DNA from: Salinivirgaceae bacterium
GTDB lineage: Bacteria; Bacteroidota; Bacteroidia; Bacteroidales; SZUA-534
Length of the DNA stretch: 64,000 nt
Assembly: GCA_024405635.1 (NCBI GenBank)
Contig: JAKSOL010000008.1
Span: forward strand, 1 to 64,000
Direction of reading: 5' to 3'
Shown in pieces: positions 3,780 through 14,927 of this stretch. Every line of letters starts with the position of its first letter. The stretch's first letter is position 1. The notes under the pieces were generated by a model. The model made no database searches. It had not been told where the DNA came from and was given only the letters and a program-made list of their open reading frames with translations. Position numbers and translations under genes: made by a program.

Positions 3780-4585
3780 TTTTTATCTAGTTGAATATCA
3801 TATCCTTCCTTACGTAAACGAGACACTTCTATATTGCGACTTTTCTCTTCACTCATCAAATGTTTCTTAACCCAACGTTTAACATCAACCGTAAAGAACC
3901 ACCATTCAAGTCTTAGTTTTTTCTTCCAATTATTATTGTCCCCCCTAATCTTTAAACTTTCTCTTTGCGAACGCTTATAATTAACATTTGATGTACCATC
4001 ACAACAGTCAAAATTAGCAACGAGTATAGGTATGTATTGGAACTTTACGTGATTCTTTAGAACTGCTTGATAAAAGAAATTATAATCTGCAGAAGATTTA
4101 TATTGAAGATCAAATAAATTTAACTTATGGTAACTTAATTGAGTAAAAGCTGCTTGATGATAAGCAGGCATACGCTCTGAAGCTTTTTCAATAGATGGAG
4201 GGCAAGCGCGATATCTATAACCTTTTGCGATTTTCATTATGTCACCATGCGCTACAATTGTATCATCTTCTATTTGTTCTACTATGCGTCGAATTACATC
4301 ACTTGCACAAAAACTATCACCAGCATTCATAAAGTTAATATAATCGCCAGTTGCAACCATTATAGCTTTATTCATAGCATCGTATAATCCATTATCTGGC
4401 TCACTTACCCAATAAGTTATATTCTCTGCATATTTTTTAATAACATCAATAGTCCCATCGATACTAGCTCCATCTATTATAATATATTCAATATTAGGAT
4501 AATCCTGACATATCACCGAGAGGATGGTTTCTTCTATAACTTTAACACAATTATATGTGACTGTTACTACTGTGATTTTTTTCAT
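3776..4585 (-). CDS. Glycosyltransferase family 2 (GT-A)
   Basis: A GT2 enzyme resembling WcaA/SpsA-type sugar transferases. It has the start ITVVTVTYNCVKVIEETI, the donor-binding IIIDGASIDGTIDVI and the element NFMNAGDSF, which takes the place of the metal-binding DxD. I chose the internal ATG at 4585 because family members begin directly with the first beta strand; an upstream in-frame ATG at 4612 would add nine residues. The protein is about 269 residues, a normal length for single-domain capsule GT2 enzymes. It follows the wzy-like gene and overlaps the next gene by 4 bp. Specificity is unknown. Confidence 0.88.
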   Translation of the reverse strand: MKKITVVTVTYNCVKVIEETILSVICQDYPNIEYIIIDGASIDGTIDVIKKYAENITYWVSEPDNGLYDAMNKAIMVATGDYINFMNAGDSFCASDVIRRIVEQIEDDTIVAHGDIMKIAKGYRYRACPPSIEKASERMPAYHQAAFTQLSYHKLNLFDLQYKSSADYNFFYQAVLKNHVKFQYIPILVANFDCCDGTSNVNYKRSQRESLKIRGDNNNWKKKLRLEWWFFTVDVKRWVKKHLMSEEKSRNIEVSRLRKEGYDIQLDKK

Positions 4586-4633
4586 TGACTTAAAATCTAC
4601 GCTTTTCTTCAAACATTAGCTGAATACTTGTTC

Positions 4634-8831: not shown

Positions 8832-9008
8832 CTATTCGAGAGACACGACAGCTCCTACTACATTATAAATACCCATATCTACAACGCCAAGAACCTGCAA
8901 TACTGCCCTTGTCGTATAGAATGATACTCCTAGAAGGAATATCATTCTTAAGTATAACATCGCTGTATTCTTCGCAATTCTTTTATTATTAGTAGTATTA
9001 TCTGACAT
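8832..9008 (-). pseudogene. Remnant of a second polysaccharide flippase (first 58 codons)
   Basis: From the ATG at 9008 the frame reads MSDNTTNNKRIAKNTAMLYL, then RAVLQVLGVVDMGIYNVVG, and stops after VSLE. This is the first-helix region of Wzx-type transporters, where full proteins run to about 480-510 residues. No continuation is visible in the other frames downstream, so it looks like a deletion remnant rather than one frameshift. An open frame extends upstream to 9236, but that part has no family-like features. It differs in sequence from the intact flippase at 6887-8236, so it is not a simple duplicate of it. Confidence 0.7.
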
Positions 9009-9242
9009 TATTATTCTTTTAGTGCATCTATTGAATGTTATAATAATCGTAGATTCAATAAACAATGCAATTTTAAAAATAACGATTAAAGAATTCACTA
9101 TAGGTAGCAGAAAAAGCGCCTTTAGTTCAGCGTAATCTCCCCCCTCGTCACCCTGATAAAAATCAAAAATCACAGAAGTATCAGAGAAATATCGTTCATC
9201 TTCTTCCGCCACCTTAGAGCAACATACATCTATCACACATCC

Positions 9243-9363
9243 ATAATAGAATCATCGGAGAAACATAAGAGAAATATAATAGAACTATCGGAGAATATCA
9301 TAAAACTATCAGAGAGCATCACAGAATTATCGGAGAATTATCAAAGAAAATAGCAGAGAAATT
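9243..9363. repeat. Degenerate tandem repeat, about 20-22 bp unit
   Basis: The motif AGAAcTATCGGAGAAtatcA recurs about five times with substitutions and small length changes, with cores ATCGGAGAA, ATCGGAGAAT, ATCAGAGAGC and ATCGGAGAAT. The surroundings are A-rich and non-coding. A further 11-bp unit (AACCACAATCA) is repeated twice near 9402-9423. Confidence 0.55.
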
Positions 9364-9547
9364 ACACCACAACGGCAACTCCACACAAACGAGCACAACC
9401 AAACCACAATCAAACCACAATCAAATTATAAATATAAATCAAATATCACTAATACATTCAAAACCCAATCCCAACCCTACCAACAAAACAATAATTAACA
9501 CAAGTGAAAAATAAACAAGGAATGTTTATAAATTGTCAATTCGATTG

Positions 9548-9579
9548 TTTGCAGATTGTTTCGCTTTTTCATATATTTG
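9548..9579 (+). promoter_or_regulatory. Consensus Bacteroidota promoter (TTTG-N20-TATATTTG)
   Basis: TTTG at 9548-9551 and TATATTTG at 9572-9579 are separated by 20 bp, which fits the -33/-7 consensus of the primary Bacteroidota sigma factor. Transcription would start near 9586. The leader would then contain several AGTTAAA-like repeats before the next gene. Confidence 0.6.
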
Positions 9580-9669
9580 TGCTGTAACATTACAATAAAA
9601 GCAAAACATAAAGAAAAGTTAAACAAACTTAAAAGAAAGTTAAACTGAAGTTAAAAAGGAGTTTAAAAA

Positions 9670-10116
9670 TTGAAAGAAACATACGACAATACAAAACTAA
9701 ACGAACCAATAAATAGAGTTATAAGCATGATTGAGATAATACAAACCGACAACTACAAACTTAAACTCAGAGCCTCAATACAATCAACAGGCCGCCTCGG
9801 TTTCACCGAAGAAACAATAAAAAGCCTCGAACTATGCGAAGGCAAATACGTGCGCTTCGGCAAAGAAGGAAACATGTTCTATATGTCAATCCACAATTCT
9901 GAAGTAGAAAACTCCTTTCCCGTAATAAAATACGGCAAATACTTCTACATATCAACAAAACTCATGTTCGACGATCAAAAAATCGATTATAAGTCCAAAA
10001 CCATCCTATTCGACTTAGCTCGCTACACCGATGGCGATACCGTTATGGGCGGCGCAACCTATCGAATGGAAATGCGTATTTTGGATAAAAAAAGAAAGGA
10101 GGCCGCCATGAGCTAG
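9670..10116 (+). CDS. Unrecognised 148-residue protein
   Basis: I recognise no family. The frame starts at TTG 9670, preceded eight bases upstream by AAGGAG, which is unusual here because neighbouring genes lack Shine-Dalgarno sites. An alternative ATG at 9727 would give 129 residues starting MIEIIQTDNYKLKL. The protein is soluble, mixed alpha/beta, with LRASIQSTGRLGFTEETIK early, tyrosine- and lysine-rich strands in the middle and a basic tail (KKRKEAAMS). It has no signal peptide or membrane span. The consensus promoter upstream supports expression. It is followed by a foldable spacer and then another orphan gene. It could be a regulatory or DNA/RNA-binding protein, but nothing in the sequence proves this. 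Confidence 0.75.
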   Translation: MKETYDNTKLNEPINRVISMIEIIQTDNYKLKLRASIQSTGRLGFTEETIKSLELCEGKYVRFGKEGNMFYMSIHNSEVENSFPVIKYGKYFYISTKLMFDDQKIDYKSKTILFDLARYTDGDTVMGGATYRMEMRILDKKRKEAAMS

Positions 10117-10260
10117 TAACGGCAGACCTTTAAAACAACGAAAGAGCAATGCACCCACATTGCCCTTTCAATAAATTTCTTGGCACTTTCTCCAGAAAAC
10201 CAAGTCGTGTGGGTGGTCTGCACGCACGCGTTTACACCCATTTATTATGGGTGTAAACTT
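10117..10260 (+). promoter_or_regulatory. Candidate structured RNA: three-way junction, possible pseudoknot and closing hairpin
   Basis: Several complementary segments are nested directly after the stop codon. P1 pairs 10122-10128 (GCAGACC) with 10215-10221 (GGTCTGC). Inside it, P2 pairs 10140-10151 with 10158-10169 (12 bp, one mismatch). P3 pairs 10179-10183 with 10200-10204 and continues at 10187-10190 with 10195-10198. The P2 loop CACCCAC (10152-10158) is complementary to GTGGGTG (10209-10215), which could form a pseudoknot. A perfect 11-bp hairpin (10230-10240 with 10248-10258, loop of 7) follows. It could be a cis-regulator of the downstream gene, a 3'-UTR RNA or a processed sRNA. Confidence 0.45.
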
Positions 10261-10349
10261 AAACAATGTTTATAATAATTTTTAAAAATTTTAAGGTATG
10301 TATACCAAAAAAATACAAATTAATTTAAACCTATTTAATTTACACAAAA

Positions 10350-10775
10350 ATGAGATTAACAAACAACGAGCGCTTCGAAGGAGCATCAGGTTCCTTCAAA
10401 GGCAGCGACTACGTGTCGCACTATAAAAAGTCCACAGGTACAACTTACCTATCAAAAAAAACAAAAACCACAAACACCGAAGCCCAAGCACAGCAAAGGC
10501 AATGCTTTGCCGCAGCCAATCGTGAAAAGTGGCGATTGTTAAAACTTCCCGACGACAACATCGAAAAGGAAGAATGGATAATACGCTGGGAAGCCGAAAA
10601 GACAAACAAACCAGACTTTGACAAAGATCTGGGTACGTTTATCATGACAACGCTAATGCAGCTCTACAAATCGGGCGAGGTAGGCATGCCAAACATCAAC
10701 CTACCACAAATCGACACCACCGAGATGGACGCTGCAATCATTGCCCGCGCCAACCAACGAGCCCAAGGACAATAA
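10350..10775 (+). CDS. Unrecognised 141-residue protein
   Basis: I recognise no family. The first 50 residues are rich in Ser, Thr, Lys and Gly (GSFKGSDYVSHYKKSTGTTY, then SKKTKTTNTEAQAQQRQ). A helical segment FAAANREKWRLL and an acidic Trp-containing region EKEEWIIRWEAEK follow. There is no signal peptide and no membrane span. An ATG start is clear, behind a very AT-rich leader with a GGTATGTATACC inverted repeat at 10295-10306. A strong terminator follows at 10814. It may be co-transcribed with the upstream orphan gene through the foldable spacer. The composition suggests a nucleic-acid-binding or structural protein, but this is only a guess. Confidence 0.75.
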   Translation: MRLTNNERFEGASGSFKGSDYVSHYKKSTGTTYLSKKTKTTNTEAQAQQRQCFAAANREKWRLLKLPDDNIEKEEWIIRWEAEKTNKPDFDKDLGTFIMTTLMQLYKSGEVGMPNINLPQIDTTEMDAAIIARANQRAQGQ

Positions 10776-10813
10776 ACCGTTATTATCAAATTCCTATTTC
10801 ATATAGGCGCATC

Positions 10814-10847
10814 AACCGCTCAACCTCCCAGTTGAGCGGTTTTTATT
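10814..10847 (+). terminator. Rho-independent terminator of the orphan gene pair
   Basis: A perfect 11-bp stem, AACCGCTCAAC with GTTGAGCGGTT, has a six-base loop and is followed by a T-rich run. It begins 38 bp after the stop of the 141-residue protein gene. Confidence 0.85.
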
Positions 10848-11166
10848 TCCCCCGTACGGGCATATCGCCTCCGCCCCAATTAATCATTAATCTCTAATCA
10901 CTAACCATTAGCCATTGCCCTTTAGCTCGTACAACCTAAAACGTATAACGTATAACGTACAACCTACAACGCATCGCCTCCGCCACTATCCGTCATTCCG
11001 ATGAAAATCGGAATCCCCTCAAGCCCCGCAACCAAGGATGCTGCCCCTTCAGGGCGTTTCTCATCCGCCCACAATTAATCACTAAACATTAGCCTTTCGC
11101 ACGTACGGGCGTATCGCATACGCCCCTATTAAACACTGGCCTTTGGCCCGTACAGCCGTATCGCCC

Positions 11167-11313
11167 CGCCCTCGTCACCCTAATGAAAATCAGTGTCTCT
11201 CTCATTTAGCACTTAAGCACCAAAAGCACACACCAGTATGGGATGCCGAATCAAGTTCGGCATGACGTGCGTCTTTTAAGCCAGAGCCCGTACGGGTGTA
11301 TCGCCTCCGCCCC
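11167..11313. repeat. 147-bp direct repeat, copy A
   Basis: Matches copy B at 11613-11759, offset 446 bp, with three mismatches by eye. It contains the hairpin ATGCCGAA/TTCGGCAT and one GC-rich palindromic element. No gene is inside. Confidence 0.9.
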
Positions 11314-11612
11314 AATTAAACACTGGCCCTCAGCCGTACGGGCGTATCGCATACGCCCCCATTAAACATTGGCCTTTGGCTCAAAAAAAAGGATACTGCC
11401 CCTTCAGGGCGCTCGTGGTGTATTCACCAATTCCTAGGGCGTTGCCCTAGGCTGATAGATACTGCCCTTTCAGGGCGTTGATGAAAATCAGGACAACAAC
11501 CCTGAAGGGGTTGCGCGAAGCGCCCTCAGCCCAATGGCAGCGCCTTGGGTAATAATCAATATGCCTGCCATTTGCGCCCTGTAAGGGCAACAGCCTTCAG
11601 CCGTATCACATA

Positions 11613-11759
11613 CGCCCTCGTCACCCTGATGAAAATCAGTGTCTCTCTCATTTAGCACTTAAGCACCAAAAGCACACACCAGTATGGGATGCCGAATCAA
11701 GTTCGGCATGACGTGCGTCTTTTAAGCCAGAGCCCGTACGGGCATATCGCCTCCGCCCC
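11613..11759. repeat. 147-bp direct repeat, copy B
   Basis: Near-identical to 11167-11313. The high identity implies a recent duplication or ongoing homogenisation of the repeat block next to the ATPase gene, whose stop codon lies only 24 bp further on. Confidence 0.9.
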
Positions 11760-11782
11760 TATTAATCATTAATCATTAAACG

Positions 11783-13012
11783 TTAATCACTAAAGAACGG
11801 GGCTTCGGCACCATCACTTTGCAATAACCAGTCTATCACATTGATTTTTTGAACACCATCAACTACACTCTCATCGAAATCTAATGAAAGTAGATATTTA
11901 GGATTTGCATCGCGAATGCACTTTAATGACGAGATTTCACGATTTAATGTTTTTTCGTCATCAACGCGATATGCAACCTGATAATACTCCATTCTTCCAT
12001 CGTATTTTTTCACCACAAAATCCACTTCTCCTTTATCCGTCCTACCAGCAAACACTTCACCGCCACGCCGCATAAGTTCAAAATAAACTACATTCTCCAA
12101 TTTATGGCCCAAATCGGCATCTGGTCTATTGGTGTTAACAATATTTCTAAGCCCCAAATCAACCACATAATATTTGTAATTTGCAGCCAACAAACGTTTG
12201 CCTTTTATATTATACAAACGCACTGGATACACTAAATACGATTCCATCAAGTATGTCAATAGTTTTTGTACCGTGTTGTGAGATACTCCATTAGCATTTT
12301 TTTGCAAACAGTCGGCAATATTATTAGGCGAGACCACACTACCAACACTATCAAACACAAAATCAATAATACGTTGCAAACTATCGAACTTGCGAAGTCT
12401 TCTGCGCTTTACAATATCTTTCACCACAACAGTTTCGTACAATGAACGCAAATATGCATTTACCATATCTGGCGATGTTTGAAAAATATTCACCGCTTCG
12501 GGAAAGCACGAACCATTAATATACCGATTAAACAATTTATCGATTCTAGTTTCATTATGGAATGCCGACACATATTCAGCAAATGAATATGGATGAAGAT
12601 TTATTGCGATATATCTTCCAGAAAGCAATGTTGCCAATTCACTAGATAAAAGATACGCATTTGACCCAGTAATGTATAAATCAATATTTTTTTTCACAAA
12701 CAGAGCATCGACAAGCTTTTCAAACTGAGGAACAAGCTGAACCTCGTCAAGAAAAACGTAGTTGGTGCTTTCAGTGCATTTAGAAACTATTGTATCATAT
12801 ATTTCAGCCCACGAACTAAATGTTTGATTTTCACGTTCTTCAAAATTGTAAGAATGTATATTATCATCCGTTATGCTTTCCGACTTTAAAACATCTTTGA
12901 ACAATTCAAACAAAGTAGATTTGCCACAACGGCGTATGCCCGTAACAACCTTTATAAGTTTTTGACCACGAAGCGCTATCAATTGCTTCAAATATGTATT
13001 TCTATTTATCAT
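11783..13012 (-). CDS. AAA ATPase with C-terminal DUF4143 domain
   Basis: The protein belongs to the widespread AAA_14 plus DUF4143 group (PF13173/PF13635). Walker A is GIRRCGKST at residues 25-33, Walker B is YVFLDEVQ near residue 98, and ITGSNAYLLSSELATLLSGR is the sensor region. The second half has the DUF4143 features KLENVVYFELMRRGGEV and GEVDFVVKK, which resemble a restriction-endonuclease fold. I chose ATG 13012 because family members start MINR; an ATG at 13072 would add 20 unrelated residues. The role of the family is unresolved, and members are often accessory and multicopy. The gene stands alone between two repeat blocks, consistent with a laterally acquired cassette. Confidence 0.88.
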   Translation of the reverse strand: MINRNTYLKQLIALRGQKLIKVVTGIRRCGKSTLFELFKDVLKSESITDDNIHSYNFEERENQTFSSWAEIYDTIVSKCTESTNYVFLDEVQLVPQFEKLVDALFVKKNIDLYITGSNAYLLSSELATLLSGRYIAINLHPYSFAEYVSAFHNETRIDKLFNRYINGSCFPEAVNIFQTSPDMVNAYLRSLYETVVVKDIVKRRRLRKFDSLQRIIDFVFDSVGSVVSPNNIADCLQKNANGVSHNTVQKLLTYLMESYLVYPVRLYNIKGKRLLAANYKYYVVDLGLRNIVNTNRPDADLGHKLENVVYFELMRRGGEVFAGRTDKGEVDFVVKKYDGRMEYYQVAYRVDDEKTLNREISSLKCIRDANPKYLLSLDFDESVVDGVQKINVIDWLLQSDGAEAPFFSD

Positions 13013-13296
13013 AGAGCCCCAAATTTGAACACAAAGATACGCAATAATGACGAAATTATATAAAAACATCATTTTTCGTCATTATCTCACCTTTGCGCCT
13101 CAAGCAATCTAATTAATTAAAACCAAGTTGAATCGTACTTTTGGCTGTTGGCTTTTAGCCGTTGGCCGTTAAGGTGTTGATGCGTTTAATAATGATTAGT
13201 GATAAGTGATTAATGGAGGGGGAAGTTGACTATTGGCTGTTAGCTATTGGCCATTGGTTGTTGATGCGTTGAATCGTTGATATGTTGATGCGATGT

Positions 13297-13713
13297 GGCT
13301 TCGGCAAGCTCAGCCACCAATACGCGCGGTGCCTGAGCTTGTCGAAGGCACTGTTGAATACGAGCTATTGGCCGTTGGCAATTATTGAATCGTATGATAG
13401 TGTTAAATTATTAATAGGTCGGGGCTTCGGCAGGCTCAGCCAACCAATACACACGGTGCCTGAGCTTGTCGAAGGCACTGTTGAATACGGGCTATTGGCC
13501 GTTGGCCGTTGGCAATTATTGAATCGTATGATAGTGTTAAGTTATTAATAGGTCGGGGCTTCGGCTGGCTCAGCCAACCAATACACACGGTGCCTGAGCT
13601 TGTCGAAGGCACTGTTGAATACGGGCTATTGGCCGTTGGCCGTTGGCAATTATTGAATCGTATGATAGTGTTAAGTTATTAATAGGTCGGGGCTTCGGCT
13701 GGCTCAGCCACCG
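13297..13713. repeat. VNTR-like array, three units of 126-134 bp plus a partial fourth
   Basis: Units start at 13297, 13423, 13557 and 13691 (partial). Each has GGCTTCGGCnnGCTCAGCC, then GGTGCCTGAGCTTGTCGAAGGCAC (an inverted relative of the first box), then GCTATTGGCCGTTGG and AATCGTATGATAGTGTTAA. The first unit is shorter mainly because it lacks one CCGTTGG step. The paired boxes are a known class of REP-like hairpin in Bacteroidota. Short open frames through the array have repetitive, unlikely protein sequences. Flanking 13130-13290 is filled with related GTTGGC/TGATGCG fragments. Confidence 0.85.
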
Positions 13714-13754
13714 GAAGGTTGATTTGTTGATGCGTTAAATCGGATAACGTATAA

Positions 13755-14927
13755 CTACTTATCACCGGCATCAACCATATTGCGCATCCAAGCCCAAAAG
13801 CCTTTGCGCTCATAGTGCGATGCCTCGCCAATGGCCAACAAAATGCGATAGACAACCGAATTTCGTTTTTTATGATATCGGACAAACGGATAGAATACGA
13901 ATGTGGAAAGAAATGCCAACGCTACCACCACAACCAATTGCATACTAATGGTTGCGCCCATCTTATACGAAAGGAACCACGCTGCCACAATCAAAGCATC
14001 AAGAGTTACTAGTCCAACGCTGATGCCAACGTGCGAGAACCCAAGTTCAAGATACAAGTGATGCAAGTGAGTTTTGTCTGGTCGGAATGGTGATTTACCC
14101 TTAATAATGCGACCCAACATTACGCGCAAGGTGTCGAAAACCGGAATTGACAACACTGCAAGCGCAAATGGTACTAAACCAACATTTTTCTGACTCATTG
14201 CCAAGCTTGCTTCTCTTTGTGACAATAATGTAAGAACAAATATGGACATGATGGCTCCCATGAGCAAAGTTCCGCCATCGCCTATAAACATCTTCGATTT
14301 GAAGCCGAACACGTTGTGCATAAAGAAAGGAATGAGCGCCCCCGCAGCCGCTGCTGCCACAACTGTCATTAGCTGATTGCCCATCATGTAGAACATAATG
14401 CCAAACATGATGCTTGCCATGGTGCAAAATCCTGAAGAATATCCATCAACGCCGTCAATAAGGTTAATGGCATTCATTATTCCAACAGCTGAAACTATGG
14501 TAAGCGGCACGTAAATCCAAGCAGATAGCACTGCTCCATAGCCCCACAATCCGTAGAAATTGCAGATGCGAATGCCTGACCAATACATCAGGAATAGCAC
14601 TACAAGTATTTCGATAATGAAACGGGCAGTAGGCGAAATATCCTTAATGTCGTCGAATGTGCCAACTGCAAGCATAACGGCCATAACAAGCGTCAACGAC
14701 TCAATCATGCCATTTTCTGGCATTACGAAGTACAACACAACCATAGCCACAGCAATGCCAATAAACACAGCCACGCCTCCAAGCACTGGCACTGGCGACT
14801 TTTGTACCTTGCGGGCATCGGGAGTGTCAAGCACATTGAATCGTCGGGCAAACCTCAACACACGACCATATATCACCCATGTTGTTATGAATGCCACTAA
14901 AAACGATATGACTATGTTCATTATCAT
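13755..14927 (-). CDS. wecA: Undecaprenyl-phosphate N-acetylglucosaminyl-1-phosphate transferase-like (WecA/TagO/Rfe family)
   Basis: A 390-residue protein with about eleven membrane spans and the motifs of PF00953: TFDDIKDIS (Mg-binding Asp pair), NAINLIDGVDGYSSG, FIGDGGTLLMG and the HLHH-containing loop KTHLHHLYLELG. The enzyme moves a sugar-1-phosphate, usually GlcNAc-1-P from UDP-GlcNAc, to undecaprenyl phosphate on the cytoplasmic face. It could prime the capsule made by the cluster 5 kb away, but MraY-like substrates cannot be excluded on sequence alone. It lies 135 bp downstream of the manC-like gene on the same strand. An ATG two codons downstream (14921) is an equally good start. Confidence 0.88.
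   Translation of the reverse strand: MIMNIVISFLVAFITTWVIYGRVLRFARRFNVLDTPDARKVQKSPVPVLGGVAVFIGIAVAMVVLYFVMPENGMIESLTLVMAVMLAVGTFDDIKDISPTARFIIEILVVLFLMYWSGIRICNFYGLWGYGAVLSAWIYVPLTIVSAVGIMNAINLIDGVDGYSSGFCTMASIMFGIMFYMMGNQLMTVVAAAAAGALIPFFMHNVFGFKSKMFIGDGGTLLMGAIMSIFVLTLLSQREASLAMSQKNVGLVPFALAVLSIPVFDTLRVMLGRIIKGKSPFRPDKTHLHHLYLELGFSHVGISVGLVTLDALIVAAWFLSYKMGATISMQLVVVVALAFLSTFVFYPFVRYHKKRNSVVYRILLAIGEASHYERKGFWAWMRNMVDAGDK

Follow-up and report, generated by a model that had tools for sequence, protein, structure and literature searches.

The window, a stretch of 64,000 nucleotides from a Salinivirgaceae bacterium, contains two small plus-strand genes, here called gene 1 and gene 2, with a gene-free spacer between them (Table 1). 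The polysaccharide genes of the neighbourhood of this apparent two-gene unit lie on the minus strand, and in their midst is found an AAA_14/DUF4143 ATPase (11783-13072, minus), which matches the PADLOC candidate PDC-S01 (E 6.6e-138). Upstream of gene 1, a candidate promoter of the Bacteroidota type was located with the sigma-ABfr consensus taken from PMC7366714, and a weak sigma-70-like match coincides with this site. Its TAnnTTTG is the sole plus-strand occurrence in a pattern scan of 9300-10900, in which none was found between gene 1 and gene 2. The candidate RNA element in the spacer thus appears to be enclosed by a promoter upstream and an intrinsic terminator downstream, and the simplest reading of the sequence is a single transcript of ~1.25 kb, which would comprise gene 1, the element and gene 2. 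We also note that the 11-mer AATGTTTATAA is common to 9521-9531 and 10265-10275, i.e. it stands upstream of gene 1 and gene 2 alike.

Table 1. Features of the two-gene locus and its spacer, in window positions.
Feature	Position	Strand	Description
Candidate Bacteroidota-type promoter	9549-9579	+	TTTG then TATATTTG; pattern match
TAnnTTTG of the gene-1 promoter pattern	9572-9579	+	pattern match
Gene 1	9670-10116	+	148 aa, or 129 aa counting from the ATG at 9727
P1, 5' strand	10122-10128	+	GCAGACC
P2 hairpin	10140-10169	+	arms 10140-10151 / 10158-10169; 6-nt loop CACCCA
Pseudoknot strand A, P2 loop	10152-10159	+	CACCCACA
P2-P3 junction	10170-10176	+	AATAAAT; complementary to the last-hairpin loop
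P3 hairpin	10179-10204	+	10179-10183 / 10200-10204 (5 pairs) and 4 inner pairs
Alternative hairpin	10207-10229	+	excludes P1 and the pseudoknot
Pseudoknot strand A'	10208-10215	+	TGTGGGTG; directly abuts P1'
P1, 3' strand (P1')	10215-10221	+	GGTCTGC
Last hairpin	10230-10258	+	10230-10241 / 10247-10258; perfect 12 bp, 5-nt loop
A+T-rich leader ahead of gene 2	10259-10349	+	91 nt, 13% GC
Gene 2	10350-10775	+	141 aa
Intrinsic terminator 3' of gene 2	10814-10846	+	11-bp stem 10814-10841 and T-rich tail

Gene 1 has about eight convincing relatives among 294 order-level genomes (Bacteroidales) and three in viral contigs. The term orphan, which an earlier note on this DNA had applied to the gene before the spacer, is therefore wrong for this 148-aa gene and is right only for the downstream 141-aa gene 2, for which the searches returned no convincing relative but weak matches only, mostly with stops or inside other genes. 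Neither gene matches a Pfam or PADLOC family. The AlphaFold2 model of gene 1 (mean pLDDT 89.8) is composed of two beta-beta-alpha-beta-beta units, and its best relevant Foldseek match is PhS018 (2glw, E 0.35). Since this match is not significant, we infer from the model only that the gene-1 protein may be cradle-loop-barrel-like and may bind nucleic acid. The structure model of gene 2 has a pLDDT of 46.8 and no reliable fold.

The spacer does contain the three helices described in the earlier note, namely P1 with 7 bp, P2 with one mismatch and P3 with 5 + 4 pairs. P1 is lengthened by C10120-G10224 and G10121-C10223. P2, which consists of 11 pairs and one A.C mismatch, is the most robust element of the core, with a probability of 1.0 in all contexts tried. 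The reported match between the P2 loop and the segment beside P1 is also real, as strands A and A' are perfectly complementary over 8 nt; as the match also involves the two uppermost P2 pairs and the base with which P1' begins, ~5-6 bp are possible without conflict. The perfect hairpin said to precede the next gene is present, with a length of 12 bp instead of 11, and no U-run is found 3' of it. Its palindrome has one copy genome-wide, even allowing 3 mismatches. The whole element is likewise a single occurrence in the genome, which speaks against a repeated mobile element. The loop of the last hairpin (10240-10246) and the P2-P3 junction are complementary in 7 nt, a match that may be due to chance because it is made of A-T pairs only. 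A putative 35-codon ORF, 10149-10256, for whose translation there is no evidence, begins within P2 and spans the structure.

The complementarity in the spacer exceeds chance, as the earlier note had supposed. The whole segment folds at -50.5 kcal/mol, compared with -28.7 kcal/mol for shuffles (z = -5.96), and none of 200 shuffles is as good. The last hairpin on its own gives a z of -6.9. For the core without it, z is -3.2 (plus strand) and -4.1 (minus strand); the energy signal comes mostly from local hairpins, and much of it from the last one. When the flanks were shuffled with P2 and P3 fixed, a P1 of at least 7 bp arose in 1.6% of trials; 0.45% gave the 8-bp match, and 6 of 100,000 (0.006%) gave both together. 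Whole-core shuffles gave a loop match of at least 7 in 9 of 2000 cases. These chance statistics overstate the effect because the tests were post hoc, picked once the structure was known. A scan of the window every 110 nt ranks the segment as one of the four best local minima for its G+C and not as a unique case. Of all local RNA folds in the window, the strongest is at 8841 on the minus strand and overlaps an ORF of that strand (8832-9236), which appears to be a fragment with the N-terminus of a flippase-like protein.

These values bear on the possibility that the spacer is ordinary DNA, in which hairpins independent of each other (a degenerate gene-1 terminator that can be read on the minus strand as well, and a palindrome to which a protein binds) happen to lie beside a P1 and a pseudoknot match of chance origin. 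P2 resembles Bacteroidota terminators, a look shared by most of the weak covariance-model matches that were inspected, and the terminator scan, which finds no intrinsic terminator in the element on the plus strand, passes P2 alone on the minus strand. For the 12-bp palindrome, a role as operator of the barrel protein is conceivable. However, P1 and the 8-bp match are improbable by chance, and the palindrome is found once in the genome. We consider this explanation unlikely.

The three-way junction proposed in the earlier note stands as far as its helices go, but P1 is not favoured by a pseudoknot-free model once the native flanks are included. P1 has a probability of 0.95 when the segment is excised, which drops to near 0 when native flanks are present; the addition of 38 bases downstream or 54 upstream lets the 10207-10229 hairpin win by 3 to 9 kcal/mol in such a model. 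The pairings of P1 and the pseudoknot on one side and of 10207-10229 on the other are mutually exclusive and comparable in energy (-50.5 versus -49.6 kcal/mol for 10114-10262). With no penalty applied, the pseudoknot helix is worth -6 to -13 kcal/mol, and its energy, once counted, could restore P1 over the alternative hairpin. P2 and the 12-bp hairpin are formed in all contexts tried, and the probability of P3 is 0.8-0.95 in most contexts and 0.08 for 10060-10262. Since folding with native flanks prefers 10207-10229, the three-way junction competes with a second state and is not an established fold.

Two exclusive pairings of comparable energy are what would be expected of a riboswitch- or attenuator-like cis-regulator, in which the exchange between P1 with the pseudoknot and the 10207-10229 hairpin would govern read-through into gene 2. 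The hexamer CACCCA/TGGGTG, of which four copies occur within ~100 bp at the element and no two further copies less than 110 bp apart anywhere in the window, also points in this direction, but the pairing alone accounts for part of this clustering, which thus adds little to the case for a switch. Attenuation, one of the roles suggested in the earlier note, is disfavoured by the missing U-run 3' of the last hairpin, and a control of translation initiation at gene 2 by the 91 nt that lie between this hairpin and the start codon; the attenuator reading of the spacer is thus weakly supported by the sequence. Moreover, pairing the core with the last hairpin costs 15-19 kcal/mol, and the element belongs to no Rfam class and occurs only once in the genome. 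A two-state regulator therefore seems quite improbable to us.

The choice of strand also has to be weighed. The core folds at -41.7 kcal/mol on the minus strand versus -32.3 kcal/mol on the plus strand, and the A.C mismatch of P2 turns into G.U on the minus strand, both of which would suit a functional RNA from the minus strand, antisense to the message of gene 1 and gene 2. On the other hand, no minus-strand TAnnTTTG match lies within 9764-10900, and those at 9631-9763 fall beyond the element for that direction, which leaves such an antisense RNA with a slim chance. The plus strand was taken because promoter and terminator flank the element on this strand only.

The search for relatives returned the element alone. 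With Rfam (release 15), the database named in the earlier note, no family was matched in 10000-10400 at the gathering threshold, and the best score at E <= 10 was 19.1 bits against a threshold of 55.8. The covariance model R1 was built from this single sequence, a type of model by which strongly diverged relatives are missed, and in the genomes covered (393 at order level, 395 at class level and the 39 nearest) it detected no true relative beyond the element itself; these sets overlap, the larger searches use stricter filters, all 20 genomes of the family are included, and the genus is represented by one species genome. A handful of weak R1 matches (best E 7e-6, in L041) look on inspection like terminators or chance, and P1 and the loop match are absent from them. 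Phage and plasmid DNA gave short A+T-rich chance matches only, and a pattern scan of viral contigs gave no match. Elsewhere in the window, an Acido-Lenti-1 RNA match at 11433-11477 scores 37.7, with the Rfam gathering score at 37; it is situated in a repeated G+C-rich intergenic stretch and likely belongs to the surrounding repeat. Other repeats of the window are three tandem 134-bp copies at 13368-13769 and, within 11167-11768, a 156-bp intergenic sequence present twice with 97% identity.

Conservation of the spacer, which the earlier note proposed as a check, was not found in the genomes searched: the spacers behind the gene-1 relatives are not homologous to that of the window, and as gene-1 relatives occur without the element, it is not a fixed part of gene 1. 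Some of these spacers fold well (L005, L024), and no sequence or topology in common with the element could be made out in them. At 4391-4610 of the viral contig L024, the spacer between a gene-1 relative and the small gene behind it also folds strongly (z -4.8); sequence similarity of this spacer to the element was not found. The general proposal of a structured RNA is accordingly backed by the folding statistics and by the position within an apparent transcription unit, but not by a homologous spacer.

The explanation we tentatively put first, while judging it somewhat short of an even chance, is an intercistronic element that is restricted to its lineage and occupies the 3' end of the gene-1 message; it would serve stability or processing and uncouple gene 1 from gene 2. 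P2, P3 and the 12-bp hairpin would form a compact barrier right behind the stop codon of gene 1. The P2 loop may base-pair to the junction strand next to P1, with stacking on P1, and would then compete with the 10207-10229 hairpin. Most likely, the barrier would set the 3' end of the gene-1 message and shield it from 3'-5' exonucleases; optional processing could free a short stable RNA. Gene 1 and gene 2 would thus be expressed at different levels from one promoter. The element adjoins the gene-1 stop and is separated from gene 2 by an unstructured leader of 91 nt with 13% GC, an arrangement that fits a 3'-end element and not a switch of gene-2 translation.

In the stabilising intercistronic hairpins of bacterial operon mRNAs, a stable structure lies right after the upstream stop and an unstructured leader precedes the next gene. 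The element is alike in its position after the stop and in its unstructured leader, and differs in being more elaborate, with a junction and pseudoknot potential, and in being a single copy in the genome. The twister ribozyme has a P1, an internal loop and an inner hairpin whose loop pairs beside P1'. The element resembles it in topology only, and even at E 10 none of the Rfam twister models gives a match. RNAs of type III toxin-antitoxin systems (ToxI-like) are similar in that a pseudoknot-capable RNA lies beside a small gene; such a system finds no support here, as there are no tandem RNA repeats and no ToxN/CptN/TenpN-type family in either neighbour. The least probable of the readings considered is a new class of pseudoknotted RNA confined to this lineage, either riboswitch-like or self-cleaving, which would switch between P1 with the pseudoknot and 10207-10229 and would work with the neighbouring barrel-fold protein.

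The same compact, pseudoknot-capable fold with a perfect hairpin at its boundary would also suit a processed sRNA, trans-acting or protein-binding, that an RNase excises as ~140 nt and that is possibly bound by the gene-1 barrel protein. Intra-operonic and 3'-UTR-derived sRNAs, e.g. BTnc069, are known in Bacteroides thetaiotaomicron (PMC7366714), and the element is akin to the intra-operonic ones in its size range, in the Bacteroidota-type promoter and in its position between two CDS of what the sequence indicates is one transcription unit. The B. thetaiotaomicron sRNAs were seen by RNA-seq or Northern, whereas the element is a candidate predicted from sequence. Without homologs, moreover, a conserved unpaired seed is not definable, and the element has no promoter or intrinsic terminator of its own on the plus strand. 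We regard a processed sRNA as a rather unlikely alternative to the 3'-end element.

The element is best described as a candidate, from a single genome, of a kind already described, i.e. the intra-operonic structured RNA. To our knowledge, few intra-operonic structured RNAs with pseudoknot potential are known in Bacteroidota. As a single-genome candidate, the element would chiefly be of use for probing and, once sister species have been sequenced, for comparison with them. If it is transcribed and processed, it would provide an additional intra-operonic structured RNA of Bacteroidota, one with pseudoknot potential and tied to an uncharacterised family of barrel-fold proteins.
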